Source: Candidatus Faecicola pullistercoris
Lineage (GTDB): Bacteria; Bacillota; Clostridia; Christensenellales; CAG-917
Length of the DNA stretch: 64,000 nt
Assembly: GCA_018714105.1 (NCBI GenBank)
Contig: DVNW01000024.1
Location: 92,828 to 156,827, forward strand
Direction of reading: 5' to 3'
Position numbers and translations under genes: made by a program. Of the stretch, positions 1,740-30,748 are shown in pieces. The notes below the pieces were generated by a model. It was not told the origin of the DNA, searched no databases, and worked only from the letters and a program-made list of their open reading frames with translations. Positions within the stretch are counted from its first letter, which is position 1; each line of letters begins with the position of its first letter.

Positions 1740-1754
1740 TTTAAGGAGGAAATT

Positions 1755-3485: not shown

Positions 3486-3492
3486 ATTTTTT

Positions 3493-3521
3493 GCCGTAAA
3501 CGCCTTCGCTTACGGCTATTT
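3493..3521 (+). terminator. Predicted intrinsic terminator after GH2 gene
   Basis: gccgtaa ... ttacggc stem followed by tattttt. Confidence 0.5.
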
Positions 3522-3526
3522 TTGGT

Positions 3527-3556
3527 TTGACATTTTACACTTTTGTATGATAATAT
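3527..3556 (+). promoter_or_regulatory. Sigma-A-like promoter for PH-domain gene
   Basis: TTGACA (3527-3532), 18 nt, TAATAT (3551-3556). Confidence 0.5.
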
Positions 3557-3590
3557 TATTTTATCGTATACGGATACGGAGGTTATTTAT

Positions 3591-4265: not shown

Positions 4266-4305
4266 TTTCCGCCCTCGGCAACGAGGGTGTTTTTTCGGTC
4301 GAAAA

Positions 4306-7613: not shown

Positions 7614-7642
7614 TAACCGACTTGAAATAAGGAGGCTGCTTT

Positions 7643-8563: not shown

Positions 8564-8570
8564 TTGAATT

Positions 8571-9902: not shown

Positions 9903-9934
9903 TTATATATTTTAAATTTAAAGAGGTGTATGTT

Positions 9935-10762: not shown

Positions 10763-10768
10763 GAAACC

Positions 10769-10799
10769 GCAAAAGCGCCGTTAGGCGCTTTTGTTTTAT
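10769..10799 (+). terminator. Intrinsic terminator
   Basis: aaaagcgcc gtta ggcgctttt gtttta. Confidence 0.85.
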
Positions 10800-10891
10800 C
10801 CGCCTGCTGTCAAAATGTATGTAAACGCTGTCAAATGTAATAATTCAAAAACAAAAAAGTATATGCTAAAACAGTCTTCAAGACGTATTAT

Positions 10892-11020
10892 ATGACAGCT
10901 TTAAATCATGCAAAGAGGCCGAAACATTACGAGACGCACAAAGCAAGAGACGAGAGTGTGCTTCTTGCGGCTAACAGACGCATGAGGAGAGCAATTAAAA
11001 CAACCGAGGTAAGTCGTTAA
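10892..11020 (+). CDS. Possible short basic peptide (42 aa), uncertain
   Basis: ATG...TAA: MTALNHAKRPKHYETHKARDESVLLAANRRMRRAIKTTEVSR; no convincing SD. Confidence 0.2.
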   Translation: MTALNHAKRPKHYETHKARDESVLLAANRRMRRAIKTTEVSR

Positions 11021-12022
11021 TTTTGACACAACATTGCGGAGTGAAGATAGAAAATATCGATAACAAGAAAATTGTAATTTAGAAAAAATTTGAGAAAAAT
11101 TTGCGGAAAAATTGCGAAATAACAACTGAAAAAAGGCAAGAAAAGCAAAATTTAGCCGAATTAAAGCAGATACGCAGTGAAAATAAAAGAATAACGGCAA
11201 AAGTCCGAAAAGCATAGCGACAGCGATAAAAATTCCTAATCAAGGTAAGTTATCGAAAAGCATATAAGGCAAAGGGACGGGGAATACGACACGGCAAGAC
11301 GGGCTGTCTGAATCGAGCGGAAAAGCGAAGTCCGGGCGGCGGGGGCGCGGCGCCGGCATCGACGGATTATCAGTAACGACGGCGGGCAAAAGCAGTGCCG
11401 CCGTATATATATTCCGGGAAGTCGGCAAAAACGAATCGGAGGTTTTGTTTAAGGCGAGGAATGTATTGAACGGTTGTTTGCAGACTGCTGCGGCGCGGGC
11501 TTGATCGGAGTGCGTGCAGAGGGTGCGGGCGGGTTGAAACAGGCTTTTTAAAGAGGGAACGGGTTAAACGGTTTCTTTCGGTCTGTTGTCAATACGGCTT
11601 AAAACGTAACGTCTGTTCGGGGCGATACGGGTTAAAAATGCGTTACGCTAAAACTTTCGCGGCGATAAACGCGTCCTGAGGCAAGTTAGCTGTGCGCCGC
11701 AAGGCAGACGGCGCACACCGGAAAGCGGAATTGAAAGGCCGAGGCAAAAAATTCTTACACCGATATTAAAAATGCGGGAATTTTGATGATAAGACAGAGG
11801 GCGGACAGAGGGAGCTGCGCCTGCGCTTGCCGGCCGAAGTAATAATACGGTGCATGAGGGGCATAATAAAGATCTTTTTAGGCATAGAAAAGCACGTCCT
11901 TTTACCGTCGGACTATTTTGTAAATTATTGATTGTTTTTATTTGCGGTAGCCAATTTTTTCCTATAAACAGCTTGTCCGGACCTTTTTTTAGGTTTTTTT
12001 AACTTTTTTTATGCCGTTTTTA
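11021..12022 (+). other. Gene-free purine-rich intergenic region; possible long leader RNA or ncRNA of the giant gene
   Basis: No credible ORF; visible A/G bias on + strand for most of the region; perfect hairpin TGTGCGCCG-9nt-CGGCGCACA (11691-11717) and 7-bp complement CGTAACG (11605-11611)/CGTTACG (11641-11647). Confidence 0.35.
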
Positions 12023-12051
12023 TTGACGGCAAAGTGCCGCGTAGGTTAAAA
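12023..12051 (+). promoter_or_regulatory. Candidate promoter for giant lipoprotein gene
   Basis: TTGACG, 17 nt, TTAAAA; weak -10. Confidence 0.35.
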
Positions 12052-12139
12052 TTGAATAGAATTATAGTAATATGAGTGGGCGTCCACTCGTACGGGCGTA
12101 TGCGTAAGAGCATCTGAGCCCGGTTAAGGAGGCTAAACT

Positions 12140-15100
12140 ATGAAATCTAAAAGGGTTGACTTGAAAAAGTTGTTGCTGGTAGCGGTTATGGCCGTACTGG
12201 TACTCGTACTCTTTGCGGCGTGCGGCGATAAGGCAGGCACGGGCTCCGTAAGCGGCGGTACCAACAATGCCGGCGGCGACAGTTCGGGAGCGGGTTCCAC
12301 CTCCGTCGTCATGCGAAACGGCGACGCGTTGGAAATGCTTTTCGACGCCATGATTGAGTCTAAAAACAGCGGGTATCTGGACGAAAAGTTTATGAATTTC
12401 GAGTTCAGCACCTTCTTCATTCTCGAAAGAGAAATGGTGTACAAGACTTATTACGTGGACTTCAAAGGCGCTCTCGACATTCAGAACGGTAAGGACAGTA
12501 AATTGTCCATCGTTATCAGAGAGGACGATAACGGCACCGATAAAGTCATTATGGGTATCTACGGCGAGGGCGGCAATATTTACATAGACACTCGCAACGT
12601 TTCCGATACCGGCGTGCAGGTGCTTAAGATAGACGACTTCGACCTCGAATGGTTCGTGGAAGTGCTTGACAGCCTGTTTACCGAACTCGACCTCGGCGGT
12701 TTTATGGAAGGGCTTAACCCCTCCGAACTTATAGGCGGACTGCTGGGCGATCTCGGTTCGATAGGCGGCATGATAGAAGGCCTTCTGGGTACTTCGCTGA
12801 GCGCTACGTTAGTTACTTTGGCCGGCGACGGTCAGGAAACAGTGGTTACCACCGACGCGTCGGGCGTTACCACTATGAGTATTCCGCTGAGCACGCTTAA
12901 CGGCCTGTTGCCGATAGCTCTCGGTATGATTCCCACGCTGGCGGGCGACATAATGGGCGATATTTACGATATCGCCGAAATTGCTTTCGGCTGGGATCTT
13001 AATACCATTCTCGGATCTATAGGCAAGGACATAGGCGCGGGCCTCGTCATTAACGGCGAGCTCATCGACGGACGCTTTAACGGCATGGATTTCGAAGTCA
13101 GGATTTCCGACAACAGACCGGAAGGCTCCATGGGAGAAGATTCCGCTCCGTTCGATCCGCTGTCTCTGCGCCTCGGGGCAAACAACTTCTCGATAGGCAG
13201 TACGCCTTCGTTCGAAATTCCCGATTTCTCTAATATGTTGGTAGAAGATTTCAGCCTCACTACTATCAACGCCGACGTCGAAATAGAAATCAACGCGAAA
13301 GAACACACTTATACCCTTAACGGCCTCGATACCGCTATGGGTAATATCATTTCTTCCCTTTTGGATTTGGATAAATATACCGAGCTCGCAAACATGCCCA
13401 TAGCCGTGGACGACACCGTTTTCAGACTGTGGGTTAAAATAAGAGCCGAAATAGACCTTAAAGACAACAGAAACACTCAGGGCCTTGTCGAAATTTACGG
13501 AGGAGAGAACAACTCGCTTCGCGCCGGGCTTTATTACAGCGGCGCCAACGAGGCCGTTTACGTGGATTTGTCGGGCATGGGCGGCGGACGTTACAAGATA
13601 GGTTCGTACGTCAAGACTACGGAACAGACGGTTACCACAAAGAACACGTCCGGTCAGTACATACTCATGCAGGACGGATATTTCGAGGTTTACGATCCGT
13701 CTAATTCCGCGCATGTCAAGAGGGGTAACGAATACCGTTACGATCTGACCAACGTTACGACTTCGTCCAACGAGTCCATTAACCTTAACAATATCATAAA
13801 GGATTCTCTGCTCGACCTTATTAAGGCAGAAGTTCCTTCGCTTATGAGGCTTATAGGAAGCCTTACCGGCGATAATTCGCCCATAATCAAGGGCGAGGGA
13901 GCGGCCTCGGCAGACGATATAGCGGCGGCCGCAGCCATTGCGGAAGCCGTAAACGAAGGTCGCATCGTTATTCCCAGATATTACGGCAGCGACGCGTTCG
14001 CTCAGGCTACCGTGGAAACCTCGGTCGACACCATGGCTCTTATTAAACAGATTCTGGCAAATATCGAGATTATCAGGGGCGAAGAAAGACTCGAATTCGA
14101 CAAAATCATGCTCGATTTGTCCGGCTCCGTTCTGGATACCATTCTTTCCATGGTTCAGCCCGGACTGGTTCTGCCCGTCACCAGGGCCGACGTGGTTATC
14201 GATTCCGAGGACATGTTCGGCATAAACGGCATATTCATCGACCTGGCTCTCGGCACGGCGGAAGAACCCGATCTGTTTACGCTCAGCCTGCCCATTACTT
14301 TGAGCTACGGCACGCATATCGACGATTGGCAGATGCCCAACTTCAACGATTCGTCCAAACCTTTTATAGACATTTCGCTCAATACCGACGAAAACGGCAA
14401 TATGGAAAGTTTTTCCACAATCGCGCTTTCGCTGTCGGGCGAAATCAAGCTGTCCGCTGCGCAGACCAACTGGGAGCTTACCCAGCTCGAAAGTCTGCTG
14501 TACGGACTGCTGCTTACTCTTAATATCGAAAACGACATAGAACTGCACTACGGCTTTACCGTTGACGTTAACCTCGATATTACCAAAATTTCGACGGATA
14601 CCATTAACGCCATTTCCGCCAAAGTGCAGCTTATCAAGAATCCCGATATCAATTCCGAGGCGACCATTTCCATCTACTTTGTAGAAGGAAAACTGTACCT
14701 CGACGCGCAGAAAGCGGGCATTCCTCCCGTCATGATAGACGTTTCGAGTCTGATGAACGGCGTGGACTTTGCGGGGCTGCTGTTCTCCAAAGATCCCACG
14801 GCGGGCGGACAGGCGACGGCTACTGCCGATCCCGCGGACAATACGGGAGATACTACGGGAGATACTTCGGGCGGCGAGGGATCTTCCATAGACGCTCTTG
14901 CCCTTATCGGCGCGCTTATCAAAGGAGTGAATATCAACTCCGGCGGACTTGAAGTGCTGATTGCCACCAACTTTATACAGAAACTTATTGAAGTTATAGG
15001 AGCGGAGAGCCTGGACCAGAACCTGATTGACTTTATGGAAAGTTTCCAGATTACCGAAGGTTCGGGTATTGCCATTCAGTTCGAAGGTCTTAACCTCAGT

Positions 15101-18100
15101 CAGCTCTGGATTGCCGCGAATATAGGAGTTTCCTCGGGCGACGATTTTGCGCTCGACCTCGGACTCGGACTCGGACATATTCTGGTCGGCCTCGAACCCA
15201 TTAACGTAACTCCCGTCAACGCGGGCGATTTTGCCGATATTATGAGCACGCTCAAATTCGGGCTCAACATGTCCGCTCAGGTAGATATATCGGCTTCCAA
15301 AAACGATATAGAGCTTGCCGAAATGCTGGGAGCACTGTTCGGCAGTATCGCGCTTAACCTTAATATAGAGGAAGATATTAATCCCGGTATAGAAGTTAAT
15401 CTCAGCGCGAATCTGGACCTCGGCACCGTGCCCGAATACAACGAGACTCAGCTTAAACTGGAAATCTACGGAGTTTCCAGCGGTAAACTGCTTGCGGGTA
15501 TTTATTATTCGGAAGGAATGCTCTACGCCGATATAGGACTGCTCGGCGTCGAGAAATTCTATATGCCGCTCGATATAATCACGCTTATTCAGGGCGCTAT
15601 TGCCGATGCGGGCACCGATAATCCCGATTCCGCGGGCGCTTCCGTCGACATTGCTGCGGCTCTCGACGGACTCGACGTTCTGGTTATGCTGTCAAATCAG
15701 CATCTGCAGGTCGAAGTTGCGGGAGGAATTACGGCCGCTCTGCTGTCCATAGTTGTAGACGCCATAGAGGGCGACGGGACGTCTTCCTCGATTACGCCCG
15801 AAATGCTCGACCTCATCAACAGGCAGATAGCTTACCTTAAAGGCGAGGGCGAACCCGTTGACGGTTTCGACATTCCCGATATAGGACTTTCGGCGGAAAT
15901 TACCTGGAAAGACGACAACAACTCACCGCTTCTTAATGCGCTCGGTCTTGACGTTAACCTTTACATACTCGACGACGCCGGCGCAAAAGCGGCGAATATC
16001 GCGATAGGCGTGCACGATATAGGCATTTCCTTCAAGTGCGTCGATCTGCTCGCGGGGATAGATCTCGGTCAGTTTACATACGCTCCTCTCATAACCATAG
16101 GCGATAACAACGAAATAGGCGTAAATCTCGAAAACGTATACTTCCAGACCATAGGTTATATCTATCTCGCGGCTTTCGAGACCGGCGCGGAGGATAACAG
16201 CGTACGCCTGGGCGATTATCTCACTCAGTTCTTTGAAACCGACGGCGACGGCAATATCGTTAACAACGAAAACGCCGATATTTTCAATGCAATAGTCGAT
16301 TTGTGCCTGAGATTCAGAGTTTACAACAGTATCGACGCTTATGCCGGATTCAGGATTGCCGCAAACCTCAATCTCGATCCCTTGATTAACAAGGGCGAGA
16401 ACGACGCGGTAGACGTCGCGGCCATACTTTCCGGGTCCGAACTCGCCCTTGAAATCTTCAACGGTAAGTATTCGGAAGAAAACGATCCGCTTATCAGCCT
16501 GTATTTGCAGAACGGTATTGCTTATCTGCGTCTTGCCGGCGACGCCGCTAACGACGTAAGACTAAAAGTCAATCTGTTCAATACGGGTCTTCTCGACCTT
16601 ATTTCGGGGGCTTCGGCCGCTGCCGACGGGGAGGGTACTCAAGGCGGAACAACTACCGAACCCGCGGAAGAACCCATGGATATTCAGTCGATTATGAAGA
16701 TTATCGACGGCGTTCTCAGCAGTATCTCGGTTAACAGAACGGAAATATCCGTAAACCTTGCCGCAAACCTTCTCGGCACGGTAATCGATCTTATACTCGA
16801 AAAAGAGGGCACCGTTCTGCCCGAACTCAACGAGGAGAACAGCAAACTCTGGTTTGCACTCGACGATAACGGCAATATCGCGCTTAACCTTATGCTGGGT
16901 ATCGACCCCATAGCGATAGGACTGTCTCTCGGCAATCTCTCGATAGGCTTCTCCGAAGGCACCGTTGTGCCCGTAAGCGAGGAAATGCGTTTTGAAAGCG
17001 ACTACAAGTCTCTTGCGGACCTGTCGCAGCTTTCGCTTTCGGCTCAGGCCGGTATAAACGTTAACTTCTATCAGAGCGAACTGCCCGTGGGCGATATAAT
17101 CAGTTCGTTCGTTTCCGACCTGGCGTTTGCGCTCGACCTCGATATCGAGGAGGACGTCGAACTCGCTCTGTATGCGAATCTGTCGGCTAATCTCGATTTT
17201 GCAAGCGTGGACAATACTCAGATAGCGCTTGAAATTTATCTCGAAAGGGAAACGAGCGATATTATGGTTCTCGGCGCCTATATCGACGGCGCGGATATTT
17301 ACCTCAATTTCCCCGCACTGAATATTTCCGCGGTCAAGATTACCAATATTTCGGCTCTTGAAGAGGTTATGTCGGATATTTATAACTCCATTTCCGGCCT
17401 GCTCGGTCAGATCGAGGGAGGCGGCGCCGCCATGGCTACCGCCGACGGCGACGTGCAGGACGCCATGGACGCTATATTTATATTGTCCGATAACTATATT
17501 AAAATACAAATTACTAACCAACTTATTGTAGGCGTGCTTCGCATGCTGCCTACTTTCGGCGTTTCCATGGAAAGCTCGCTTGTGGATTCGCTGGTAGGTT
17601 TGATTGAAATGCTCGGCCTCGAAGTCAACCTCGGTTACGATACCGACGATTTCGTACTCGACGTGGCCATAGAAACCGCATACCTCGGCCTCGGCATCTG
17701 GCTGGGCAATCCGGTTATCTCGGTAGAGAGGTTCGACGATCTGCTCGCGCCCGTTGAGGCAAACCCCGGCATTTATACCGAATTCTCGACCGAAGGTAAC
17801 GTGTACGTCGAACTCGAATTCGCCATAAGGTACGCTCTCGCTCAGGGAGAAACCGATCTGTCGCCTTTGCTCGACAGTATTCTGAGCACGGTTAATATCG
17901 AAGGATTCGATCTTAAAGGCTTACTTAACGGCCTGCTTATCAGACTTGCCACTACCAGCGACGCGAAAGGACAGCTCGGCGTCAAGGTTATGGCGAACGC
18001 CAACGTCATGAACATGATTAACAACGCCGACAGCGGCGACATTGCTTCGCTGATACTCGATAATATCGAAGCGGGTATAGAAATTTCGGTAGGCTCCAAA

Positions 18101-21100
18101 AAGGCTTACGTGATGCTGACTCAGTTCGATCCTGCCGGCGGCGACAATACCAGCGCTTATCTCTTCTTTAAACTCGACGAGATAGGCGCACCCAACTTCA
18201 AACTCAATCTTACCGAACTTATCGGTTCGGCAGGTAACCTCGATGCGGGCGACGGAGCTTCTTCTACCGAAGCCGCGGCGGCGGGCGACACTGTTTCCGA
18301 CCCCGAAACCGAAGATACCACCTTGCAGATGATTAGCAAACTGCTTAATCTCGAAGGCAACGGTATCGCACTGGGCGGAAGAGGTCTCGAAATTACCCTT
18401 GCGCGCGAAATCATCGCCGTTCTGCTCAGCCAGTTCATCGACGGCTTCGTCGTATACGATGAAAACGGCGAACTCACGGACGCTGCGCTTGCTTTGACCT
18501 TTGTAGACGAAACTAAGGACGACAGCGCGTTCAAAACCGTTGAAACCGCAGAGGATTCCGAAATAGCCGACAACCGTCCTTACGTCAAAATCGACGGCAC
18601 TTACGTGCTTTTCGAATCCGATAACCCCGCTCACGCAGGTCTGCAGCAGTACTATAAGGTAAGAAGCACCGGCATTACCTTCAAAACCGACGATCCCAGA
18701 AACGGCGGTAAGGCTTCCTTCAATATCGACCTTGCGCTTAACCTCGGCCTCGATATCGGTATAAGTATTTACGGTTATGCCGTAGGTTTCGGCAGCGATA
18801 ACCTGTATATCCCGCTCGGAGACAAGAACAGTTATGCCGACATCAACAATATAATGCAGGATAAACTGTACGTTTCCATAGACGGATACTTCGATTTGTC
18901 CGCCGTAAGAGACGAGGATTACAATCTTTCGCCTTTAATAGGCGGTCTGCTGGGCGATAACGAGATGGTTTCCGGCCTGGCAGATTTGCTGACCGTGCTC
19001 TCGCTTAAAGAGTTCCAGAACCTCGTTCAGTTCCGCATTTCGGCTTCCCTCACGCTGGGCGACCTCATAGGCGGCGAAACCGATCTCAGCAGAATGGAAG
19101 CTTCCATAGTTATTTTCAGGACGCTCGAAACGCTGGAAGAAGAAATATTAATAGGTTTATATTTAAGAGACAATAATCTTTATATAGATGCAAGAGGCTT
19201 CAAACAGGATCCCGATTATCCCGTTCTCAGGGTTGCCGACTTCACGGACGGCCTCATGAACATTATCGGTTCTCTCTCTACGGGCACCGATGAAGCAAGC
19301 ACTCTTTCCACCGAAGACGACGGTGCGCAAGGTTCGGCCGACGGAGACGAACTCGGACTTGCTCTTGACATCGTTCTCGGCAGTGCGGGTCTCGGAGTAG
19401 TGGTTTACGAAGACCTCGTATACGCCCTTATAGCCATGCTGGCGCCTTCGCTCGACCTCGACCTCAGCGTATTCGGCGACATCAATCTTTCGGTTATGCT
19501 TAACTTCAACGAAGCCGAATCTCTGCGCGATATAAGCCTCGACATAGGTTTGGGTATCGGAGCGCTTAACCTCGGCCTCGGTATAGGCAACGTGGTTATT
19601 GACATCAACTCCGAAAACGTTATAGTTCCCGACGAAGTCGTGGAAAACAGCAGAAACATCGTTGAAATGCCTCTGTCGCTCGGACTCGTGCTTCAGGTTG
19701 AACTGTCGGCCGATCAGGGTGTTCTCGACGTCGGAACCTTGCTTTCCGATTTCATACCCGGACTTAATCTCGAAGTAAACGTGCCCGACAACGGCGGTAC
19801 CGCGATGCTTTTAGAGATAGCTATCGACGTTACCGTCAACCTCGGCGACTTCAATACTCTCGAGGCGGCGGTTACCGTTACCAACAAGAGCACGCACAAT
19901 AACGACGTATTGCTTAAAGTAATTTACTCCGGCGGCGTGATTTACGTCGACGGCAGCGGCCTCGGTATATCCAAAGTCAGCATTACCGGCCTCGATCTCG
20001 GCGGCTTGCTCGAAGACAAACTGGGCGGCATGCTCGGCCACGAGACGGCAGACGGAGCGGCCATCGCTTCCGCCGAAGCTTTCGATCCTTCCGCGGCGGC
20101 CATTCTCGTATTGCTTGACGGCCATAAGATAGGTATCGAAATAGGTATGGACCTCATCAGGTGGGTACTGGATATCCCCGCAATAAAAGAACAGGTAGAT
20201 ATCAATAAGTATCTGCCCGACGGATTGGATATTTCGGCTTTCTTCGATATCAATTACTTAAACGACGACGGCTTGCTCGATCTGTCCATATTCCTTAAAG
20301 CGCAGATAGCAAATCTGCTGGGAATAGGTTTCGGCCTGTCCGATATTCTGATTGACTTCGAGCCCAAAACCCTCAACGATATTCAGGATACCTCGGAATA
20401 CGTCGAGATAATGTCGCTTACTCTTACAGAGGACGCAGAAGGCAATATCGCAATCGAGCCCGAAATAAAACTCGAATACGTAGGTCTCGGACTCGAACTC
20501 AGCGTAGAATCGGTAATGTCGGGCGGCAACGGCGGCGCGGACGATCCCGACGGACAGGGCGGAGTACTGGATATGTCCACTTTGTTCTCGCCTCTCTTCC
20601 CGGCGGTCGAAAACCTTATGACGCAGATTAAACTGCCCGAAGACGTACTTAACCACATTATAGTGTCCATAGACGCTAACGTGAGATTGCTCGACCTTAT
20701 CGACCTGCTCTCCGGCGACGAGGAAATAAGTATCGAAACCCTCGACTTCGGCGCGCTTCTCGAAATGGTGGAACTTTCCATTGAAATCTATAACGAAATA
20801 GAACAGGAAATACTCGTAGGACTTTACCTCAAGGGCGGTAACGTTTATATCTATCTCCAGGGTATAGGCTTGCAGAACATAGTAATAGAAAAATCCTTTA
20901 TTATAAATATTATCGACGCCGTTATGCCCGCTTCGGGCGCGGCCGGCAGCTCTATGGCCGCTATGGCTTCGGACGGAACCGATGATACGTCGGCAATTCT
21001 CGGTACCGTAGCCACTATCGTCAATACTTTCATTACGGGCCTCGATATTACGGGACAGACGCTTGTTCTCGTTATAGAGAATTCCTACCTTGTAGATCTT

Positions 21101-24100
21101 ATCCATCTTGTATTCCCCGATATGAACATGGGACAGATTCCCGAACTCGATATCGGTAAGAATTCCATTTCGATCAATATGCACAGAGGACACTTCGTCA
21201 AGTACGCCGAAGCGAGCGAATACGAACTCTTCTATGCAAAAGACATGACGGGTAAATACGTGTTCGTGAACGGCGCTCCCGCGGTTTACGACGAGAACGA
21301 GCCCGATCACAGGGGCCTTGCAAGATACAATCTGTACGTATTGCAGGGCGAGGAATATATCGAATACGATATTAACAACGCCGAACATCAGGGGCTTGAT
21401 ATTTATATCTTCCCGCAGAGAAACGGCCTCCTCGAAGTCGACCTCAGCTTCTACACGAGCACGTTGGGAATTTATCTGCCCGCGCCCGAGATATCGCTGA
21501 CGGGTATCGAAATTGAATTGCCCGTCGGTACATGGGTAAGCGCGACCGACGTAAGAGGCGTTTCGCTCGAACTGCGCGGCACTATGGGTGTAGATACCGC
21601 AGACACTACGGGTAAAGAAGGCTTCACCGCCGGAAATATCCTGGGAGGCATTCTCGGAGATCTCGAAGCCCCCTTGCTGCTTGACGGATTCAGCGCAAGC
21701 GTTGAGTACGAAATCTGCGCGTATATCGGTTTCGATTATTCGCTGGCTCCCACTAAGTCGTTCAGTCTTACCGATCTCGACCTGTCCATAAGGCTCGGCA
21801 AGACCGCTTACGACGAGAGCGGCAATATCATAAGCCAGTCGCCTCAGATTACCATTGTTTACAGCAGCGCTACGCAGACGGCTTATCTTGACCTTGCTTT
21901 CTTCGGTCTGCCTAAACTGTCCCTCGGCGGTATCAGCCTTACCACGCTTCTCAACGACGTTCTGGGCGACGCAATGAAAGGCGACGCGGACGGCAGTGCG
22001 GTAACTACCGACGGCATAGAGGGCGAGGCTACCGAAAATATCTTCACCAAATATCCTTCCGTGATTGCGATAATGCAGCCCAATATGCTGGCTGCGGGTA
22101 TTTCGGCTAAGTTTATCATAGCTCTTGTCGAAGTTATCGCGGGCGAAAAGGCGGACGATATAGTTAAGTATTTCCCCAACGTAGGCCTGGAAATAGACGC
22201 TACTTCTTATCCGCTTTCGCTGGGACTCATACTTCAATTGCAGAATGCAGACTGCCAGAAGGTGGTTGATCTGTTCCTGACTTTCAACGGATTCGATTAC
22301 GACGAATTCGGTATGGCAAACGGTTCGGATATACGCTTCTATACTCAGGGCGAGTATAACGGGGAATATATTATCGTCGACCCCAACGAGTTTACCTCGG
22401 TAGGCAATATCAATATCGACGCGGATACCAGTATCGGCGAGGAAGTATTCGATTTCAACCTTGAAAAACTTGCTCTCGAACTGCAAATCAGCCTCGATTT
22501 CATAGCGCCTGAAGAAATAAAAGACTGGTCTGAATACTTTACTGCCATATTCGGTATGTCCGACGAGGAGTTCGATATGCTGATAGCCGTTCTCGAAAAG
22601 GACAGCAACAGCAGCATAACTCTGACTTTGCAGGCCAACGTCAATCTGGCCGGTCTTATCAACGGCTTCGATCTCAACGGTACGGAAATACTGCTTGCGC
22701 TCGACATCAAGTCGGATATTTCGTCTCAGGCCAATATGCGCTTCGCCATTACCGTGGCAGGTAAAGAAAACGGAGTTGCTTCCGTATACATCGACCTTTC
22801 GGGCTGGCGCAACAAAGGGCAGTATAAGTTAGACCTCAACATAGGTTCGCTCCTCAGCGGCGCCATCGGCGGAGCTTCGGCTCAGAATATCGCGGGGGCC
22901 ACGGCAGAGCCCAATTACGGCTTGCTGCCCGAGAACATATTCAGCATCATTAACGGTATATTCGGCTATCTGCAATTCAGCGACAGCACGATTACCGTAG
23001 GATTTAACAATCAGATTATTTCGGCGATATTCGACTTGCTGCTCGCCAATAACCCCAACTTCGAACAGGGTATGGAAATGCCCACGGTAGAAGGCGGACT
23101 CAGCATAGATACCACCAACTGGACCGTTTCGCTTAACATGAAGTTCGACAGCAACATGGATATCAAGCTGGGCATCAAGAACATCAAAGTGGGCACTTCT
23201 CCCAGTGAGGCGGTACCCGGTTCGGGCAGCCTGCTTCCCGAAAACGCCGACAGCTTTACCGATATTATGGATATGAGACTGCTTGTGGAACTTATCGGCT
23301 CCATGAGCTACCAGGCTACGCAGTCCAGCGAAACCAACCCTGCCGTAGACCTCAGCGGTATTCTCTCGCTCATAACGAACGAAAGCGGACTCCCGCTTAT
23401 TCAGAACCCGCAGCTTCAGATCCGTATCGGCGAAGATATAAGCATGGAACATGCCATCAATACCCGTCTGTACGTGGATACGGCCGACTTCATGAATTTG
23501 AAGGTTGCTATCGAAATATTCAAGAATAAGGCCGACGCTCAGGTTCCCGGAGCTACCCCGCAGATAGGCATTTACCTTGACGGCAGCGATATTTTCGTTG
23601 ACCTCGGAGGCCTCGGCATACCCAAACTCCATATAGCAAACGTAAACCTCGGTAAGATTATCAACGACGCTATAGACAGCGTGGATATTCTCGCCGAACT
23701 CGGTATTGTGAGAGGAGGCGCGTCCGCAAGTTCGGATGCTACCGCAAGCGTGGACAGCTGGTGGGGCGAAACGGCTATCGAAAACGCCGCCAGCGCTTAT
23801 CTCGCGCTCATCTTCGCGCCCGAGAAATTTGCCATAGGCGTTAACGTTGCGATGATCGACGCCATTGTTCAGATCGTAATGAGAAGCCGCGGCGAAGTCG
23901 TTGAGGAGGGAACTCAGCTTCTGCCCAACTTCGGCGAACTCGGCCTCGAAATAGATTCCACTTCCGGTAAGCCTCTGCCCGCAATGAGACTTAAACTGCT
24001 TAACGCGGCGGGCGGCACCAGCCTCGAAGGCGTATTCAAACTCGACGATATCGTGCTTAACGCAAGCGACTTCTCGGCGGGATATACCTACGGCAGCTGG

Positions 24101-27100
24101 GCCAATACCTCTACCGGACAGTACGGCTTTGTAGGAGATACTTCCAGAACAACCACGTATAACGGATTTATGGAGCACGTTTACTCGGCTATGGAAGCAG
24201 GAGAATACTCGACCGTATACGACCTCGAATCCGGCAAGATTCTGCTGGATAAGATTGCTATCGGCGCCGATCTGACTTTCTCGCTCAATACCAAAGAGGG
24301 CGTTAACGATATCAATTCCGGCAATTACAAGAGCAGTTTGCAGTATTATCTGTCTAAACTTATCAATTCCTTCCTCGGCGACGCTGACGACCCCGACTTC
24401 CTTAGCAAGTTTGCCGTTGTCGCCGGCGAGAATAAGGAAATGATTTATACCGTTTCTATAAGAATCGTAGTCAACGTCGGCTCTCTGATTACCGACTCCG
24501 GCTTTGATATTATGGGTATCCTCGACAGCGAAATGTCAATCGAGGCCTATATCGGCGGTCAGTACAATAAGAAGATTCTCGGACTGTATAAGCTCGAAAA
24601 CGACTCCACGATTTACGCCGATCTGTCCGGCCTCGGACTGCCCAAGATTCAGCTGTTCGGCCTTGACGCCATTATGGGTATGCTGCCGGCCTTGGGCGCG
24701 GCTTCGGATAACGCTATGAGCACGGCGGTATTTGCCGCCGCCGATACGGACGCAGAGGTCGCCTTTGCCGAACTCGTACTGCAGGACGGCCTTATCGGTA
24801 TTAACATCGAGCCCGAGTTTATCTATCAGATACTCGAATACGCGGGATATGAGGTCGGATCTTCTTCCGACGGCTACAAGACGATGGAATACGTTACCGA
24901 AGACAATAAGGTTATGCAGGTTCCTCTGCCCAACGCGCAGTCGGTAAGCATTACGCTTAATATTCTCGACAAGCTCGAGTCGCTTGACCTTACCGTGTTT
25001 GCCGACCAGCTCGGTACAACCCTGTCGTTCGGACTCAGCAATCTGCAACTTACTACGGATACCGACGGCTTTATCCCCGATTCCATGAAACCCGTTACCG
25101 ACGAGTACGGCGCTTTGCAACTCGCGAGCGGCGGCGAACTCAGCCTTACCAATATTCTGTCTTCCGTACTCGAAGCGCACGACCTCAACCTCGGTATTAC
25201 TTATGCTAAGAATAATACTACTTCACAGGGCAGTAACCGTAAGTCGCAGACCGTTATTACCATCAGAACCACCAAAAACGGCGACACCAGTCAGTCCGGC
25301 GGTATAAATCACGGTAACAACAAGCTGAACGCGGCGCTTAATATCAATACGCCCGCGAATACGAATAACAAGATCGATATTTACCTGTATAACAACAAGA
25401 TAAGCGGCGATATTTCGGGCGCGTTCACTAAGGGTATTGTCGGCGGCGTGCTGAACCTCAATACCTTTAAAGATATGGAATTTGCCGACCTCAACATAAT
25501 CGAGCTTATCGGCAATCTGGGCAGCGCTTCGGCAAGCGCTAACGTCGCTACCTCTTCCGCCGACGGCACCGAAGGCGATACCTCGGGCGGACTTCTGGGC
25601 GATATGACCATCAACGACATACTCAAAGGTATTAAAGTCAACTGGTGGTACGGTAACGTTCATAACAACCTCACGCCCAACGAAAGGTATTCGACCATAC
25701 GTATCGAGCTCGGTACTCAGCTTATCAACACTCTGATGATTCTGGTAAATAACCTTATTTACGGGTTTGCCACCGACCAGACAGATGAGCAGAAAGCCGC
25801 GTTCGACGCCCTTAGTTACGAGGAAAAACTTGCGGTTGTAAGAGGTTACGTGAACAATCTTGACGAATTGCTGTATAACTTTGTCGTAGACATGCTCTCA
25901 GACCTTGCGGGTATCAACATCGGTACGGTTTTGGGTATAGTTCCTCAGACCCGGCAGGAAATCAAAAACCTTATCGAAAGCCTGCTGCCGTTGCCTATAC
26001 TCAACGACGGGCAGAAGGCCTATATAGATATTACCCTCGATAAGGGCACGATAGGCTCCGGCGACATGGCGCTCGTACACGAAATAGGCATTTACCTCGG
26101 CTGTGAAAAGGGTACAGCTTACGGCAGTCTGCCCTCGAACTCTGCGTTTATAGTTATCAACAACAACGGCATCAACATCAAGAACGCAGTAAGCGCACAG
26201 TGGGCTAATTCGAACGAGGCAGCTACTCTTATGAATAATACCTACTCGGTAACCAACCCCTTCGACCCGTGGGAACTTTCGGCAAGCGCGCTTACCGACG
26301 CTTCCAGACTCCCGCAGAGAGCTTACCTCTTCTTCGGCGACGGCACGAATAACATGAATACTCAGGCCAGCGGCGGAAATACCACTGAATTTACCGGCCT
26401 TTCCGGTAGCGCGGTTGTTTGGGATTCGTCTTCCGTTAACCTCGTGCCCGGCACAACAAGTACCATGTACGGCTATGCGGGTAATCAGAGACTGGGCAGC
26501 ATTACCGTTCAGGTTTCCAATACCTACGGTATGAAGTCGCTGTACGGCTATCTCGATGCCGATAACAACTTTATCAGGAGTACTTCGCTGGTTATCGACG
26601 CGACGGGAACAACGCCTAACAGCCTTGCTTCCATGCCTAAGACCATTGTAATTGTTCTTAACAACGGTTACTATCAGGTTCTTACCATGCAGGAGAGCAT
26701 CCTCGACAATACCGAGCAGACCAAACCCGTTATCCCGGGTATCACCGATAAGGCAACCACGCTTTACGGTAACTTCGGTCTGTTGTCGGATATTCCCGAC
26801 AGCCTCGACGACGAGAGCGGAAACTACGAAATCGAATTCTGGTATCAGTATCTCCGCTCGGGTACTATCCAAAGCAAGTTCAACCTTACTCTGGTAAACC
26901 GTAAGGTAAGCGAAATAGTATTGCCGGTTTCGGCTAAACTTGCCGACGGCAGCGTGGTTACGGATAAATACAACTTTGTGGGCGATTCGTCTACGTTCGA
27001 CGTATTTAACCTTAAACCTTATAACTACGACATAGGCGCAAGCCTTGCCGAACTTACCACCGTAGACGTTGTGTTTGCGGACGGTTCTACCGGCAGAATT

Positions 27101-30100
27101 AGCGCCGATTGGAGTGCGGCGGTCGCAAAACTCAACCGTTACTACAACAAAGACGCGGCCTATAAGGGAGTTGACGTTACTCTTGACGTGTCTGTCGGCG
27201 GCGCCGAAGGTATAGCCCAGACCGTTCCTCTGCGCGTTTACGTAGAGTCCAAAGTCGTAAAGGGCCTTACCAAGACGGACGGCGCGTCCAGAACATTTAA
27301 CTATAATCCTTACGAAGAATACAATATCCAGAGTATTCTCAAAGGAAGCAACGTTTACTTCGATATAGAAGTCGGAGGCGCCGATGCGGTATCCACGGCT
27401 ATTTCCAACCTCCACGTAAATCTGCCCGAACTGTCGGCGGAAGATAAGTCGTTTGACGGTAAAGGTTCATTCATCATAACCTTCCTTATCGGCGGCGTGG
27501 AAGTTACCGATTCCGAAGGAAACGTTACCGTTGTCGGAGCGCAGGAGGCCAAAGCAAGGGTTTACGTAAACGCTAAGATTCTGTCTTCCGCAACCGTTCA
27601 GGTAGACGATATTGCAAATGCTCTTAACCTGATAGGAAATAACAATAACGGCACCTCGGGATTTGACGTTCTGCCTTATATTTCAAATACGGTTAACGCC
27701 AAATTCGCCGACGGTACGTCGACATTGCTTAAGGTTAAATCCGCAAATATGGCAAGCGAGGTTAAGGTTACTAACGCCGGCGGCGTATTTACCGCAGATA
27801 TAGTTGTGGGAAGTCTCTACGATCAGGACAACGTCAACGATCAGAGCATAAGGGCTAACCTGATTGTTCCCAGAATCAATATTATGGAAGTCAGAGCCGT
27901 TCAGAGCGGATTTACGTCCGATTCTCCCGTTTACGTAACTTACAACAAGGGCGGACAGACGGTTACTACCATAGAATATACGGATTTCTGGGCAAGTGTA
28001 GGCAACGTCTCCGCACTCGTTAACGGCGTGGCTTCTGCCGCGATAGGCGAGGTGGCCGGCTCGGTTAAAATCGGTTCCGAGCAGTTTGACGTAGTCGTTA
28101 CCGATACAAAACCCGAACTCGGAAGTTCGTATACGAGAGGTGCGTTAGGCAGTGCGCTCACGGTTTCGGCCATGAGCGCGGCCGATGACCTCGCTGTGGC
28201 TTCTGCAGACGGATTTCTGGACGGTTTCGTGGAAATTACCGACGTTGAATGGCGCAGCATCACTTTCGACCCCATGACCGATAAGCAGGTGTATTACCCC
28301 GAGCAGATTGAGGTTACGCTCTCCGACGGTTCTACCAAAATAGTAGGAGCGGAGTTCTATTCCTTTACCGAGGGAGCCAAGAACGGGCTTGAAATACTCA
28401 GATATAGGACCCTTAATTTGCAGGACGGCTACGGTAACCTTATCGAAAACAGAATGTACGAGGCCGCTTATTACGCTACCGCTCAAGTCAGACTGTATGA
28501 AGGCGTGGACGAAAAGTTCGTTACGGTACCCGTTACCGTACCCGGCAGAGTGGTTGTGGGCGATACGGTAAGCACTCAGGTTACCATTGTCAATCCATAT
28601 TCTTATACATACGATCCCGCTTCCGCATTTTTCAGTCTGCAAAAGACGGCTACCGTTACTTTTGACGGCGGCGATTACCGTAACTTTACTTTGCACTGGA
28701 ATCAGAGCGATATAGCGATACCCGTTATCGCGGAGAACGGCGCTACTTTCTCCGCCAGGGTTACTTACGGCGAAGGATTGCAGACCTTTACTCAGGCAGT
28801 CAGCATTGTGGTAAGGCCTTATATTCTCACTCCCGAAAAACTTTCGGCAGTGCAGGACGCGCTTGACGCCAAAACTTTCTATGCTTACGACCTCAGCGGT
28901 ACGGGTGATAACAATCCGTACAACATAGCAAATTATCCCTCGGAAGTTACTTTTGCCATAGGTCTTACGGGCAGCGAAACGCTCAGCCTCAGATGGGATT
29001 TGTCCGCTTTGAAATTCAATTACGAGGGCGGCGTCCGCGATATTACGGTCTTGGCGGGCAACGATATGTACGGTTATCAGGACGTCGTGCTTAAAATCGA
29101 CATCAAACCGTGTATAATCGAAAGCATAAACATAGCGGAAATGCTTCCCGCTCAGTTTGTCAATTACGCGACAGGGCTGGATATTCTTACAGTCGGAAGA
29201 AAAACGCCGGCCGAGGTAAGCGCTTCGGCGGCAACCGCAAACGTCAAATTCCGTGGCATTGACGGAGTTTACTCCGAAAGCGTTCTCTGGACGATAGAAG
29301 GCCTCGACACGCTTGATTTTTCGGGCGGCAGCAAAAACGCGGTTATTACTATCCGCGACAGGGATATTGCCGGCGCGCAGAAGTATAATATGACTTTCGT
29401 TTATACTCCTCTAGGTATTACCGAAGTGCGTAACGTAGGCGGAGGCAATATCTTCAACAATCTGACCATTAACCCCTACGAATCCTCCGTTCTGAATACG
29501 CCGGATTCGGTTGAGGCCGTATTTACCGATAACAGGACGATAGTTTTCAATACAGCGGGAACAAACGGCTATAAACTTATCTGGGACAGGTCCGGTTACA
29601 ATACTTCCTACAACAGTACCGAATGCTACGTAAACGCCAAGCTAAACTTTGACGGTATCACTTATTCGCAGAAGTTTGAATTTAACGTAATCAATTACAG
29701 GGCGAACAAAATATCCTGGGGCGGCACCGAGTATAACGTTGTTGACGGAAAGGTTACCGGGTATACTTATCAGCTCGATCCGTTTGATCCGAACAATCAG
29801 GCCGTAAACAAAAACGTAACCGTCAGATTTACAGCGGATACGGGCGAGAGTATGACAAAATCCTTTACTGCAAACGTTTCCATGCTGGACGGATTCAAGC
29901 TTACTACCGCGGGCGGCAATTACAGGGCTGCGCTTAAAGTAGGCAATAACGAAACCATTTACGTTGACGTCTACGTCGTCAACAGGACCATTACTATCGG
30001 CGGAAAGGACGTCGCCGCAGCGTCAAACGATGAACTTAAAGCAATTGCCAGCATAGCAGGAAGCTATTCGTTGGGCGCAGGACTTACGTTGCCTTCGAGC

Positions 30101-30748
30101 ACGAGCGAACTCAGCCTGAGCGGAAGTATGCCTGCGGGCGTTACCGCTTACAACAACATTTACTGGAAGGTTGAGAAGTACAATTACTCGACTCTTACCA
30201 CCAACGTAAACGTCATGACTTTCAGCGGCAACGACTTTACCGGTAATTACACCGGCACGAAGAACGTGGTTTACAATAAAGACAGCGTGGTTTACAGCCT
30301 GTCGCAGATAAATAACACGTCGGCTGCACCCACGAGAACGCTGGATACCTCCGAGCCCTGTAAATACGTGCTTACCGCTTATATCGGAAGAGTTTATCAG
30401 AACGGCGGCAACATAGTCGTATGGGGCGAACAGGCCTCCGTTCAGTACACTGTTCTCGTGGGCGGCTATCAGGAAACTTCGATTACCGAATCCTTTATGG
30501 GAGCATGGAGATCGGACGATAATCAGTATAACTATATCGTCTTCGACGCCAACACGGCGAGAACGGGCAGGTTTATTACGTCAAGCAGTCAGGCCTTTAC
30601 GTATACTTACACCAAAGACGAGACTACCGGCCTTGCCACTATTACCACGAGTACCGGCCTGACCATCACTCAGACGGCTAACGGTCAGTTGAAGTGCAGT
30701 AACGGCATTACTTTTGTGCCTTACGATTTGCAGACAGCCGTTGTATGA
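12140..30748 (+). CDS. Giant (6202 aa) multi-modular predicted surface lipoprotein
   Basis: Single uninterrupted ORF; SD aaggagg before ATG; signal peptide MKSKRVDLKKLLLVAVMAVLVLVLFAAC with lipobox Cys28 (codon at 12221); repetitive beta-rich modules, then Ig-like repeats. Confidence 0.95.
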   Translation: MKSKRVDLKKLLLVAVMAVLVLVLFAACGDKAGTGSVSGGTNNAGGDSSGAGSTSVVMRNGDALEMLFDAMIESKNSGYLDEKFMNFEFSTFFILEREMVYKTYYVDFKGALDIQNGKDSKLSIVIREDDNGTDKVIMGIYGEGGNIYIDTRNVSDTGVQVLKIDDFDLEWFVEVLDSLFTELDLGGFMEGLNPSELIGGLLGDLGSIGGMIEGLLGTSLSATLVTLAGDGQETVVTTDASGVTTMSIPLSTLNGLLPIALGMIPTLAGDIMGDIYDIAEIAFGWDLNTILGSIGKDIGAGLVINGELIDGRFNGMDFEVRISDNRPEGSMGEDSAPFDPLSLRLGANNFSIGSTPSFEIPDFSNMLVEDFSLTTINADVEIEINAKEHTYTLNGLDTAMGNIISSLLDLDKYTELANMPIAVDDTVFRLWVKIRAEIDLKDNRNTQGLVEIYGGENNSLRAGLYYSGANEAVYVDLSGMGGGRYKIGSYVKTTEQTVTTKNTSGQYILMQDGYFEVYDPSNSAHVKRGNEYRYDLTNVTTSSNESINLNNIIKDSLLDLIKAEVPSLMRLIGSLTGDNSPIIKGEGAASADDIAAAAAIAEAVNEGRIVIPRYYGSDAFAQATVETSVDTMALIKQILANIEIIRGEERLEFDKIMLDLSGSVLDTILSMVQPGLVLPVTRADVVIDSEDMFGINGIFIDLALGTAEEPDLFTLSLPITLSYGTHIDDWQMPNFNDSSKPFIDISLNTDENGNMESFSTIALSLSGEIKLSAAQTNWELTQLESLLYGLLLTLNIENDIELHYGFTVDVNLDITKISTDTINAISAKVQLIKNPDINSEATISIYFVEGKLYLDAQKAGIPPVMIDVSSLMNGVDFAGLLFSKDPTAGGQATATADPADNTGDTTGDTSGGEGSSIDALALIGALIKGVNINSGGLEVLIATNFIQKLIEVIGAESLDQNLIDFMESFQITEGSGIAIQFEGLNLSQLWIAANIGVSSGDDFALDLGLGLGHILVGLEPINVTPVNAGDFADIMSTLKFGLNMSAQVDISASKNDIELAEMLGALFGSIALNLNIEEDINPGIEVNLSANLDLGTVPEYNETQLKLEIYGVSSGKLLAGIYYSEGMLYADIGLLGVEKFYMPLDIITLIQGAIADAGTDNPDSAGASVDIAAALDGLDVLVMLSNQHLQVEVAGGITAALLSIVVDAIEGDGTSSSITPEMLDLINRQIAYLKGEGEPVDGFDIPDIGLSAEITWKDDNNSPLLNALGLDVNLYILDDAGAKAANIAIGVHDIGISFKCVDLLAGIDLGQFTYAPLITIGDNNEIGVNLENVYFQTIGYIYLAAFETGAEDNSVRLGDYLTQFFETDGDGNIVNNENADIFNAIVDLCLRFRVYNSIDAYAGFRIAANLNLDPLINKGENDAVDVAAILSGSELALEIFNGKYSEENDPLISLYLQNGIAYLRLAGDAANDVRLKVNLFNTGLLDLISGASAAADGEGTQGGTTTEPAEEPMDIQSIMKIIDGVLSSISVNRTEISVNLAANLLGTVIDLILEKEGTVLPELNEENSKLWFALDDNGNIALNLMLGIDPIAIGLSLGNLSIGFSEGTVVPVSEEMRFESDYKSLADLSQLSLSAQAGINVNFYQSELPVGDIISSFVSDLAFALDLDIEEDVELALYANLSANLDFASVDNTQIALEIYLERETSDIMVLGAYIDGADIYLNFPALNISAVKITNISALEEVMSDIYNSISGLLGQIEGGGAAMATADGDVQDAMDAIFILSDNYIKIQITNQLIVGVLRMLPTFGVSMESSLVDSLVGLIEMLGLEVNLGYDTDDFVLDVAIETAYLGLGIWLGNPVISVERFDDLLAPVEANPGIYTEFSTEGNVYVELEFAIRYALAQGETDLSPLLDSILSTVNIEGFDLKGLLNGLLIRLATTSDAKGQLGVKVMANANVMNMINNADSGDIASLILDNIEAGIEISVGSKKAYVMLTQFDPAGGDNTSAYLFFKLDEIGAPNFKLNLTELIGSAGNLDAGDGASSTEAAAAGDTVSDPETEDTTLQMISKLLNLEGNGIALGGRGLEITLAREIIAVLLSQFIDGFVVYDENGELTDAALALTFVDETKDDSAFKTVETAEDSEIADNRPYVKIDGTYVLFESDNPAHAGLQQYYKVRSTGITFKTDDPRNGGKASFNIDLALNLGLDIGISIYGYAVGFGSDNLYIPLGDKNSYADINNIMQDKLYVSIDGYFDLSAVRDEDYNLSPLIGGLLGDNEMVSGLADLLTVLSLKEFQNLVQFRISASLTLGDLIGGETDLSRMEASIVIFRTLETLEEEILIGLYLRDNNLYIDARGFKQDPDYPVLRVADFTDGLMNIIGSLSTGTDEASTLSTEDDGAQGSADGDELGLALDIVLGSAGLGVVVYEDLVYALIAMLAPSLDLDLSVFGDINLSVMLNFNEAESLRDISLDIGLGIGALNLGLGIGNVVIDINSENVIVPDEVVENSRNIVEMPLSLGLVLQVELSADQGVLDVGTLLSDFIPGLNLEVNVPDNGGTAMLLEIAIDVTVNLGDFNTLEAAVTVTNKSTHNNDVLLKVIYSGGVIYVDGSGLGISKVSITGLDLGGLLEDKLGGMLGHETADGAAIASAEAFDPSAAAILVLLDGHKIGIEIGMDLIRWVLDIPAIKEQVDINKYLPDGLDISAFFDINYLNDDGLLDLSIFLKAQIANLLGIGFGLSDILIDFEPKTLNDIQDTSEYVEIMSLTLTEDAEGNIAIEPEIKLEYVGLGLELSVESVMSGGNGGADDPDGQGGVLDMSTLFSPLFPAVENLMTQIKLPEDVLNHIIVSIDANVRLLDLIDLLSGDEEISIETLDFGALLEMVELSIEIYNEIEQEILVGLYLKGGNVYIYLQGIGLQNIVIEKSFIINIIDAVMPASGAAGSSMAAMASDGTDDTSAILGTVATIVNTFITGLDITGQTLVLVIENSYLVDLIHLVFPDMNMGQIPELDIGKNSISINMHRGHFVKYAEASEYELFYAKDMTGKYVFVNGAPAVYDENEPDHRGLARYNLYVLQGEEYIEYDINNAEHQGLDIYIFPQRNGLLEVDLSFYTSTLGIYLPAPEISLTGIEIELPVGTWVSATDVRGVSLELRGTMGVDTADTTGKEGFTAGNILGGILGDLEAPLLLDGFSASVEYEICAYIGFDYSLAPTKSFSLTDLDLSIRLGKTAYDESGNIISQSPQITIVYSSATQTAYLDLAFFGLPKLSLGGISLTTLLNDVLGDAMKGDADGSAVTTDGIEGEATENIFTKYPSVIAIMQPNMLAAGISAKFIIALVEVIAGEKADDIVKYFPNVGLEIDATSYPLSLGLILQLQNADCQKVVDLFLTFNGFDYDEFGMANGSDIRFYTQGEYNGEYIIVDPNEFTSVGNINIDADTSIGEEVFDFNLEKLALELQISLDFIAPEEIKDWSEYFTAIFGMSDEEFDMLIAVLEKDSNSSITLTLQANVNLAGLINGFDLNGTEILLALDIKSDISSQANMRFAITVAGKENGVASVYIDLSGWRNKGQYKLDLNIGSLLSGAIGGASAQNIAGATAEPNYGLLPENIFSIINGIFGYLQFSDSTITVGFNNQIISAIFDLLLANNPNFEQGMEMPTVEGGLSIDTTNWTVSLNMKFDSNMDIKLGIKNIKVGTSPSEAVPGSGSLLPENADSFTDIMDMRLLVELIGSMSYQATQSSETNPAVDLSGILSLITNESGLPLIQNPQLQIRIGEDISMEHAINTRLYVDTADFMNLKVAIEIFKNKADAQVPGATPQIGIYLDGSDIFVDLGGLGIPKLHIANVNLGKIINDAIDSVDILAELGIVRGGASASSDATASVDSWWGETAIENAASAYLALIFAPEKFAIGVNVAMIDAIVQIVMRSRGEVVEEGTQLLPNFGELGLEIDSTSGKPLPAMRLKLLNAAGGTSLEGVFKLDDIVLNASDFSAGYTYGSWANTSTGQYGFVGDTSRTTTYNGFMEHVYSAMEAGEYSTVYDLESGKILLDKIAIGADLTFSLNTKEGVNDINSGNYKSSLQYYLSKLINSFLGDADDPDFLSKFAVVAGENKEMIYTVSIRIVVNVGSLITDSGFDIMGILDSEMSIEAYIGGQYNKKILGLYKLENDSTIYADLSGLGLPKIQLFGLDAIMGMLPALGAASDNAMSTAVFAAADTDAEVAFAELVLQDGLIGINIEPEFIYQILEYAGYEVGSSSDGYKTMEYVTEDNKVMQVPLPNAQSVSITLNILDKLESLDLTVFADQLGTTLSFGLSNLQLTTDTDGFIPDSMKPVTDEYGALQLASGGELSLTNILSSVLEAHDLNLGITYAKNNTTSQGSNRKSQTVITIRTTKNGDTSQSGGINHGNNKLNAALNINTPANTNNKIDIYLYNNKISGDISGAFTKGIVGGVLNLNTFKDMEFADLNIIELIGNLGSASASANVATSSADGTEGDTSGGLLGDMTINDILKGIKVNWWYGNVHNNLTPNERYSTIRIELGTQLINTLMILVNNLIYGFATDQTDEQKAAFDALSYEEKLAVVRGYVNNLDELLYNFVVDMLSDLAGINIGTVLGIVPQTRQEIKNLIESLLPLPILNDGQKAYIDITLDKGTIGSGDMALVHEIGIYLGCEKGTAYGSLPSNSAFIVINNNGINIKNAVSAQWANSNEAATLMNNTYSVTNPFDPWELSASALTDASRLPQRAYLFFGDGTNNMNTQASGGNTTEFTGLSGSAVVWDSSSVNLVPGTTSTMYGYAGNQRLGSITVQVSNTYGMKSLYGYLDADNNFIRSTSLVIDATGTTPNSLASMPKTIVIVLNNGYYQVLTMQESILDNTEQTKPVIPGITDKATTLYGNFGLLSDIPDSLDDESGNYEIEFWYQYLRSGTIQSKFNLTLVNRKVSEIVLPVSAKLADGSVVTDKYNFVGDSSTFDVFNLKPYNYDIGASLAELTTVDVVFADGSTGRISADWSAAVAKLNRYYNKDAAYKGVDVTLDVSVGGAEGIAQTVPLRVYVESKVVKGLTKTDGASRTFNYNPYEEYNIQSILKGSNVYFDIEVGGADAVSTAISNLHVNLPELSAEDKSFDGKGSFIITFLIGGVEVTDSEGNVTVVGAQEAKARVYVNAKILSSATVQVDDIANALNLIGNNNNGTSGFDVLPYISNTVNAKFADGTSTLLKVKSANMASEVKVTNAGGVFTADIVVGSLYDQDNVNDQSIRANLIVPRINIMEVRAVQSGFTSDSPVYVTYNKGGQTVTTIEYTDFWASVGNVSALVNGVASAAIGEVAGSVKIGSEQFDVVVTDTKPELGSSYTRGALGSALTVSAMSAADDLAVASADGFLDGFVEITDVEWRSITFDPMTDKQVYYPEQIEVTLSDGSTKIVGAEFYSFTEGAKNGLEILRYRTLNLQDGYGNLIENRMYEAAYYATAQVRLYEGVDEKFVTVPVTVPGRVVVGDTVSTQVTIVNPYSYTYDPASAFFSLQKTATVTFDGGDYRNFTLHWNQSDIAIPVIAENGATFSARVTYGEGLQTFTQAVSIVVRPYILTPEKLSAVQDALDAKTFYAYDLSGTGDNNPYNIANYPSEVTFAIGLTGSETLSLRWDLSALKFNYEGGVRDITVLAGNDMYGYQDVVLKIDIKPCIIESINIAEMLPAQFVNYATGLDILTVGRKTPAEVSASAATANVKFRGIDGVYSESVLWTIEGLDTLDFSGGSKNAVITIRDRDIAGAQKYNMTFVYTPLGITEVRNVGGGNIFNNLTINPYESSVLNTPDSVEAVFTDNRTIVFNTAGTNGYKLIWDRSGYNTSYNSTECYVNAKLNFDGITYSQKFEFNVINYRANKISWGGTEYNVVDGKVTGYTYQLDPFDPNNQAVNKNVTVRFTADTGESMTKSFTANVSMLDGFKLTTAGGNYRAALKVGNNETIYVDVYVVNRTITIGGKDVAAASNDELKAIASIAGSYSLGAGLTLPSSTSELSLSGSMPAGVTAYNNIYWKVEKYNYSTLTTNVNVMTFSGNDFTGNYTGTKNVVYNKDSVVYSLSQINNTSAAPTRTLDTSEPCKYVLTAYIGRVYQNGGNIVVWGEQASVQYTVLVGGYQETSITESFMGAWRSDDNQYNYIVFDANTARTGRFITSSSQAFTYTYTKDETTGLATITTSTGLTITQTANGQLKCSNGITFVPYDLQTAVV
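13500..25450 (+). repeat. About 14 diverged protein-level tandem modules (mean spacing ~910 nt / ~304 aa)
   Basis: Recurrent signature '(I/L)GLY-x-(D/N)-G-x-x-Y-(V/L/A)-D-(L)-x-G-(L/I)-G-(I/L)-x-K' near 13540, 14690, 15530, 16511, 17290, 18151, 19175, 19936, 20840, 21876, 22781, 23588, 24608, 25390, each followed by an amphipathic segment, an Ala/Asp/Thr-rich linker and a second helix-like segment. Confidence 0.8.
26990..30000 (+). repeat. About 9 Ig-like/bacterial surface repeats (~115 aa) in the C-terminal part
   Basis: Recurring 'NPY...(S/T)VxVxFxDG(S/T)...xxxW' blocks: LKPYNYDIGASLAELTTVDVVFADGS; NYNPYEEYNIQSILKGSNVYFDI; DVLPYISNTVNAKFADGTS; VNPYSYTYDPASAFFSLQKTATVTFDGGDYRNFTLHW; NNPYNIANYPSEVTFAIGLTGSETLSLRW; INPYESSVLNTPDSVEAVFTDNRT; LDPFDPNNQAVNKNVTVRFTADTG. 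Confidence 0.65.

Follow-up and report, generated by a model that had tools for sequence, protein, structure and literature searches.

The window, that is the whole stretch of 64,000 nucleotides analysed here, forms the end of a 157-kb contig in a MAG of 1.62 Mb that is 98% complete. It contains an 18.6-kb ORF predicted to encode a giant lipoprotein (Table 1). The initial annotation had described this ORF as single and uninterrupted, preceded by a good Shine-Dalgarno sequence, encoding a signal peptide with the lipobox LFAAC (Cys28) and followed by a terminator of its own. All of these features were recovered: translation runs from an ATG start without internal stop, and a hairpin with a TTCG loop and a T-run lies 3′ of the gene, an automatic scan calling this hairpin on the opposite strand only. 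The GC content of the gene is about 0.50, like that of its surroundings.

The flanking genes are, as had been noted, of ordinary metabolic and housekeeping types. Those upstream (6072-10762) encode a GH20 hexosaminidase, a mutarotase-like protein, a ROK-like protein and a PIG-L protein, and likely constitute a cluster for GlcNAc use; of these, all but the ROK-like gene are also found with the giant in many genera. The order that recurs across genera is GH20, mutarotase-like, PIG-L, giant and then, often, an AEC transporter, SPFH, Zn-ribbon and cupin. The 1.4-kb gap separating the upstream genes from the giant (10763-12125) is unusually long for this genome. Having neither an Rfam match nor a convincing gene, it is possibly a long regulatory leader.

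Table 1. Features of the giant gene, in positions of the window
Feature	Start	End	Strand	Basis or remark
Shine-Dalgarno AAGGAGG	12126	12132	+	sequence
Giant lipoprotein ORF	12140	30748	+	6202 aa, pI about 4.1, about 661 kDa
Signal peptide and lipobox LFAAC, Cys28	12140	12223	+	sequence; lipobox in 18/18 orthologues
Array of 15 diverged tandem repeats, about 290 aa each	12317	25639	+	residues about 60-4500; self-BLAST, 280-position HMM
Repeat 1	12440	12679	+	HMM; C-terminal half of model, strands start directly behind lipid anchor
Repeat 2	12998	13603	+	HMM
Repeat 3	14009	14851	+	HMM
Repeat 4	14870	15661	+	HMM
Repeat 5	15650	16642	+	HMM
Repeat 6	16664	17482	+	HMM; model with overall pLDDT 67.8 (about 80-95 in residues 161-250 of the model)
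Repeat 7	17465	18328	+	HMM
Repeat 8	18305	19372	+	HMM
Repeat 9	19364	20095	+	HMM
Repeat 10	20108	20992	+	HMM
Repeat 11	20984	22036	+	HMM
Repeat 12	22073	22912	+	HMM
Repeat 13	22937	23797	+	HMM
Repeat 14	23807	24766	+	HMM
Repeat 15	24764	25585	+	HMM; weak match, E=0.0017
Junction segment after repeats, consensus WDASSVDL...RLAGYVYGYALN...IPVYVT	26402	26539	+	consensus of family
Distal C-terminal region, Ig-like (Big_4 type)	26690	30469	+	below Big_4 cut-off here; stretch that matches best about 28298-28345
Terminator-like hairpin (7-bp stem, TTCG loop) and T-run	30762	30785	+	sequence

Seventeen orthologues were collected from independent MAGs. All are open reading frames of 7.3-10.4 kaa with a lipobox, full or near-full in extent, G011 (9,583 aa in the family search) and G022 (contig end) running off the stretch read. 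With the window copy included, both the Shine-Dalgarno sequence and the lipobox are present in 18 of 18 proteins (6.2-10.4 kaa). Divergence by codon position in the two closest pairs (0.28/0.22/0.44 and 0.30/0.25/0.43) follows the pattern expected of a coding sequence under purifying selection. Misassembly, which the initial annotation had raised as an objection to its own reading, is spoken against by the independence of the orthologous MAGs; that so many independent copies are open and lipobox-bearing shows that the ORF is a genuine gene, the product of neither chance nor misassembly.

LspA is encoded in the host's own genome (E=1.4e-32) and was found in 20 of the 21 relatives searched, while Omp85 was found in none of 21 genomes searched, a combination indicating that lipoproteins are processed and giving no sign of an outer membrane. 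Attachment of the giant to the cell membrane is thus probably by lipid at Cys28. Motif and hydrophobicity scans of the protein revealed no LPxTG, no NPxT[NDG] and no C-terminal membrane helix; strong hydrophobicity is confined to the signal peptide, with marginal windows near residues 2405 and 3316. The C-terminal LPxTG and membrane helix that characterise sortase-anchored MSCRAMMs are therefore both missing. Neither SLH nor choline-binding domains are matched in Pfam, and Pfam and NCBIfam detect no A, C, KS or ACP domain of the NRPS/PKS type, in agreement with the initial annotation, which had seen no LPxTG, SLH, choline-binding or synthase motif.

Self-comparison of the protein uncovered diverged repeats at 20-28% identity, separated by linkers rich in A, S, T, G and D. 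The repeat architecture proposed initially was borne out by a 280-position HMM, which tiles residues 101-4482 with 15 units; mean identity between repeats within the window protein is 18.6%. In the consensus, hydrophobic residues alternate strictly in several long strands. The most frequent motif is LGiYY..G.LYiDLSgLLG, whose tyrosine and aspartate are nearly invariant. The initial annotation had left room for the repeat belonging to a well-described family, yet no relative emerged from Pfam, NCBIfam or PDB sequences, whether the single protein or a profile was used. As for AsmA, TamB and Chorein-type domains, the repeat region has no Pfam match at E<=1 save a sub-threshold DUF4112. As far as such comparisons reach, the repeat unit is a previously undescribed domain. 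Short look-alike inserts (YVLFESDNPAHAGLQQYY, YFEVYDPSNSAHVKRGNEYRY) occur inside repeats at residues about 490-540, 2145-2175 and 3038-3090, and the orthologues hold tyrosine-rich inserts of a similar kind, which looks as though a small module had spread between units.

Structure prediction with AlphaFold2 was poor for a two-repeat stretch aligned over 18 orthologues (pLDDT 48.9) and partly confident for a single repeat with 72 aligned paralogous and orthologous repeats (pLDDT 67.8). In the latter model, residues 161-250 reach block means of 80-95 and form strands of 14, 9, 10, 6 and 6 residues plus a long helix. The mature N-terminus begins with precisely this confident second half of the model, repeat 1 matching that half only. 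The true unit of folding is therefore likely to be permuted, joining the second half of one HMM repeat to the first half of the next, a register that puts the linker between two helices. The single repeat was probably modelled in the wrong register, as the linkers appear to break up the fold. Foldseek searches of the repeat models against PDB and BFVD returned nothing at E<=0.001; 4eg9, the top PDB match of the two-repeat model, was disregarded, the model being poor. Profile comparison with DUF6612 (hhalign) gave E-values of 0.18-0.27, against 0.18 for a reversed control, and no LolA/LppX Pfam match was obtained in the repeats. Membership in the LolA/LppX/DUF6612 group is unsupported, since the DUF6612 match does not rise above its control and Foldseek is silent; the LolA/LppX-type order of helices and strands in the permuted unit is a resemblance that may serve as a lead.

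The array is followed by a junction segment with the ten-residue stretch that is best conserved in the giant family (YGYALN), and then by the distal region. Here the Pfam family Big_4 (PF07532) exceeds its curated cut-off in two relatives, L067 (score 36.4, E=3.8e-9) and L072 (23.1, 5.4e-5), whereas the window copy stays below it (19.6 versus 22.1, E=6.7e-4), and Big_4 accounts for no more than a part of the distal 1.3 kaa. The initial annotation was silent on this Ig-like region, on the fixed number of repeats in the family and on the window copy being the shortest of 18.

At 6.2 kaa that copy shares 22-27% identity with the other orthologues. The repeat count is 14-15 units in 13 of the 17 orthologues and 12-13 in the remaining four, in which some units fall under detection or carry large insertions. 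Between species, repeats match by position: in 1571 of 1878 comparisons (84%) the best match of an n-th repeat was again the n-th, same-ordinal repeats being 36% identical versus 19% otherwise; this positional matching is weaker for the divergent window copy. The divergence of the giant parallels that of the neighbouring GH20 gene (Spearman 0.89, Mantel p 0.0005). Together with the recurring neighbourhood, positional orthology and GH20-correlated divergence show that the array arose a single time, ahead of the family's radiation, and was inherited vertically thereafter. Differences in length stem from the distal region and from sequence inserted into repeats; gain of repeats does not contribute.

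Among 396 genomes of the order, 82 matched a three-repeat profile: 26 of the 33 from the host's family and 56 spread over five further families, where many matches lie inside ORFs of 7-13.6 kaa. The same profile matched none of 398 other genomes in a sample of the phylum, and a weaker, single-repeat profile none of 340 in a sample of the class. The six giants of other families that were read begin in the manner of lipoproteins and hold 12-21 repeats; the longest measures 13,589 aa. Carriers are MAGs of uncultured Clostridia, with water-buffalo reticulum among the sources; two are named 'Christensenella sp.' (Christensenellales in NCBI). In another family of the order, ORFs of 13,589 aa (G268, L091-L094) and 12,531 aa (G165, L095-L097) with the same repeat continue for about 5 kaa beyond the last detected repeat. 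The giant of G158 (family f5, L103-L105) carries an extra domain directly after the lipobox, VVLDANGGTF...LTAQWS, which by eye is InlB-B-repeat-like.

Seven of the 33 same-family genomes have no match to the giant. Three of them (G028, G033, G035; L142-L147), congeners of G024, retain both genes that flank the giant in G024, on its left and on its right, 1.4-6 kb apart; the 27.7-kb giant gene is gone, and between the two lie different, short genes or hardly any DNA. The other four are uninformative (G031 ends at a contig edge, G034 lacks a comparable site, and two more). Given the distribution of the giant in the order, loss is the simpler reading of its absence. With three congeners lacking it at an otherwise intact site, the gene is dispensable. 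The initial proposal that the giant is presumably worth its cost is supported by order-wide vertical conservation and tempered by these clean absences in close relatives.

We consider it reasonably probable that the giant is a single-copy, membrane-tethered rod that crosses the wall of a monoderm and presents Ig-like domains for surface contact or adhesion. The protein would be exported by its signal peptide, cut at Cys28 by signal peptidase II and held in the cytoplasmic membrane by its lipid, as lipobox and LspA suggest. The fifteen domains of about 290 aa and their low-complexity linkers would make up an elongated array, acidic in charge (pI about 4), across the wall; at a few nanometres per domain, this would be longer than a monoderm wall is thick. 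The distal Big_4-type domains would lie outside and, in the least certain step, touch host glycans or other cells. The lipobox in 18 of 18 proteins and in giants from other families, the LspA and Omp85 results, the 15 repeats and their positional orthology, the divergence shared with GH20, the conserved neighbourhood, the acidity, the lack of a C-terminal anchor and the Big_4 matches in relatives all point this way. Against it count the poor two-repeat model and the partly confident single-repeat one, neither of which shows a rod, the spread in length (6.2-10.4 kaa) within one family despite a stable repeat number, the lack of any recognised adhesin or lectin domain in the window protein and its sub-threshold Big_4 score. 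The membrane-tethered extracellular rod of the initial annotation stands as the best reading, although an inferred one.

Some of the same observations would also fit a tandem carrier of hydrophobic ligands, in which membrane-anchored, LolA/LppX/LprG-like half-barrels (a helix, five antiparallel strands, helices and further strands) relay or store hydrophobic molecules, such as lipids or glycolipids, across the wall. Indeed, the mature N-terminus runs helix, five strands, helix, the permuted register leaves the linkers between helices, the strands alternate strictly in hydrophobicity, and the best local DUF6612 match falls on the segment that would be structurally equivalent. The proteins of the LolA/LppX/LprG and DUF6612 groups share with the giant their lipoprotein nature and a similar sequence of helices and amphipathic strands, but no sequence, profile or fold match is significant, and the giant has about 15 units per chain. 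The absence of Omp85 gives no sign of an outer-membrane acceptor; a carrier seems unlikely. The constancy of 14-15 positionally orthologous repeats in most family members would suit an envelope scaffold or molecular ruler, the fixed unit number of which sets cell-wall spacing with no binding role. This too is improbable, as the gene is cleanly absent from three congeners, other families differ in repeat number (12-21) and large, variable insertions lie inside repeats. Such insertions, the differences in length between species and the loss of the gene in some lineages might instead be expected of a decoy or variable surface antigen whose size variation evades phages or host immunity. Yet the repeats neither duplicate nor homogenise, as their low within-protein identity and positional orthology attest, and the closest pairs are under purifying selection, making a decoy highly improbable. 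A bolder form of the carrier, in which the repeat founds a new domain superfamily of 12-21 tandem lipid- or glycolipid-binding units in one membrane-anchored chain along which hydrophobic cargo crosses the monoderm wall, is given little chance. If true, the giant would be the bacterial counterpart of bridge-like lipid transfer proteins, made as a string of beads and not as a single groove.

Giant repetitive surface proteins are already known. Giant1-5 of Apilactobacillus kunkeei are extracellular proteins of 3-8 kaa in a monoderm with a 1.5 Mb genome (PMC12863079), and bacterial huge proteins of over 5000 aa include a surface-protein class with Ig-like (Big) domains (PMC11573180), which the present giant resembles in size class, probable surface type and, judging by its relatives, such domains. 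With Giant1-5 it shares the small monoderm genome and, on the preferred reading, a repetitive rod with terminal binding-type domains. Those proteins, however, combine an N-terminal beta-solenoid, alpha-helical repeats and a C-terminal DUF5776, are encoded in a five-gene cluster, and occur in few species only, with exchange between genera (PMC12863079). The giant described here is a single gene with a probable N-terminal lipid anchor, order-wide and vertically inherited; its repeat is predicted to be alpha/beta and is unrelated to any Pfam family, and Pfam finds no DUF5776 in it. The literature searched (preprints and most subscription papers fell outside its scope) contains no report of the family. 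New are the repeat domain itself, a giant that is probably lipid-anchored at its N-terminus, vertical descent throughout the order with repeats orthologous by position, and the natural deletions.

Earlier work, as cited in PMC11573180, portrays giant genes as strain-specific and deviating in tetranucleotide usage. The present gene is their opposite: ancient, syntenic, single-copy, order-wide and normal in GC. Its family, which belongs to uncultured Clostridia of gut type whose genomes are small, brings to light giants of up to 13,589 aa built from a domain not described before, and the existence of close relatives in which the gene is naturally deleted makes the function of the giant directly testable by comparison.
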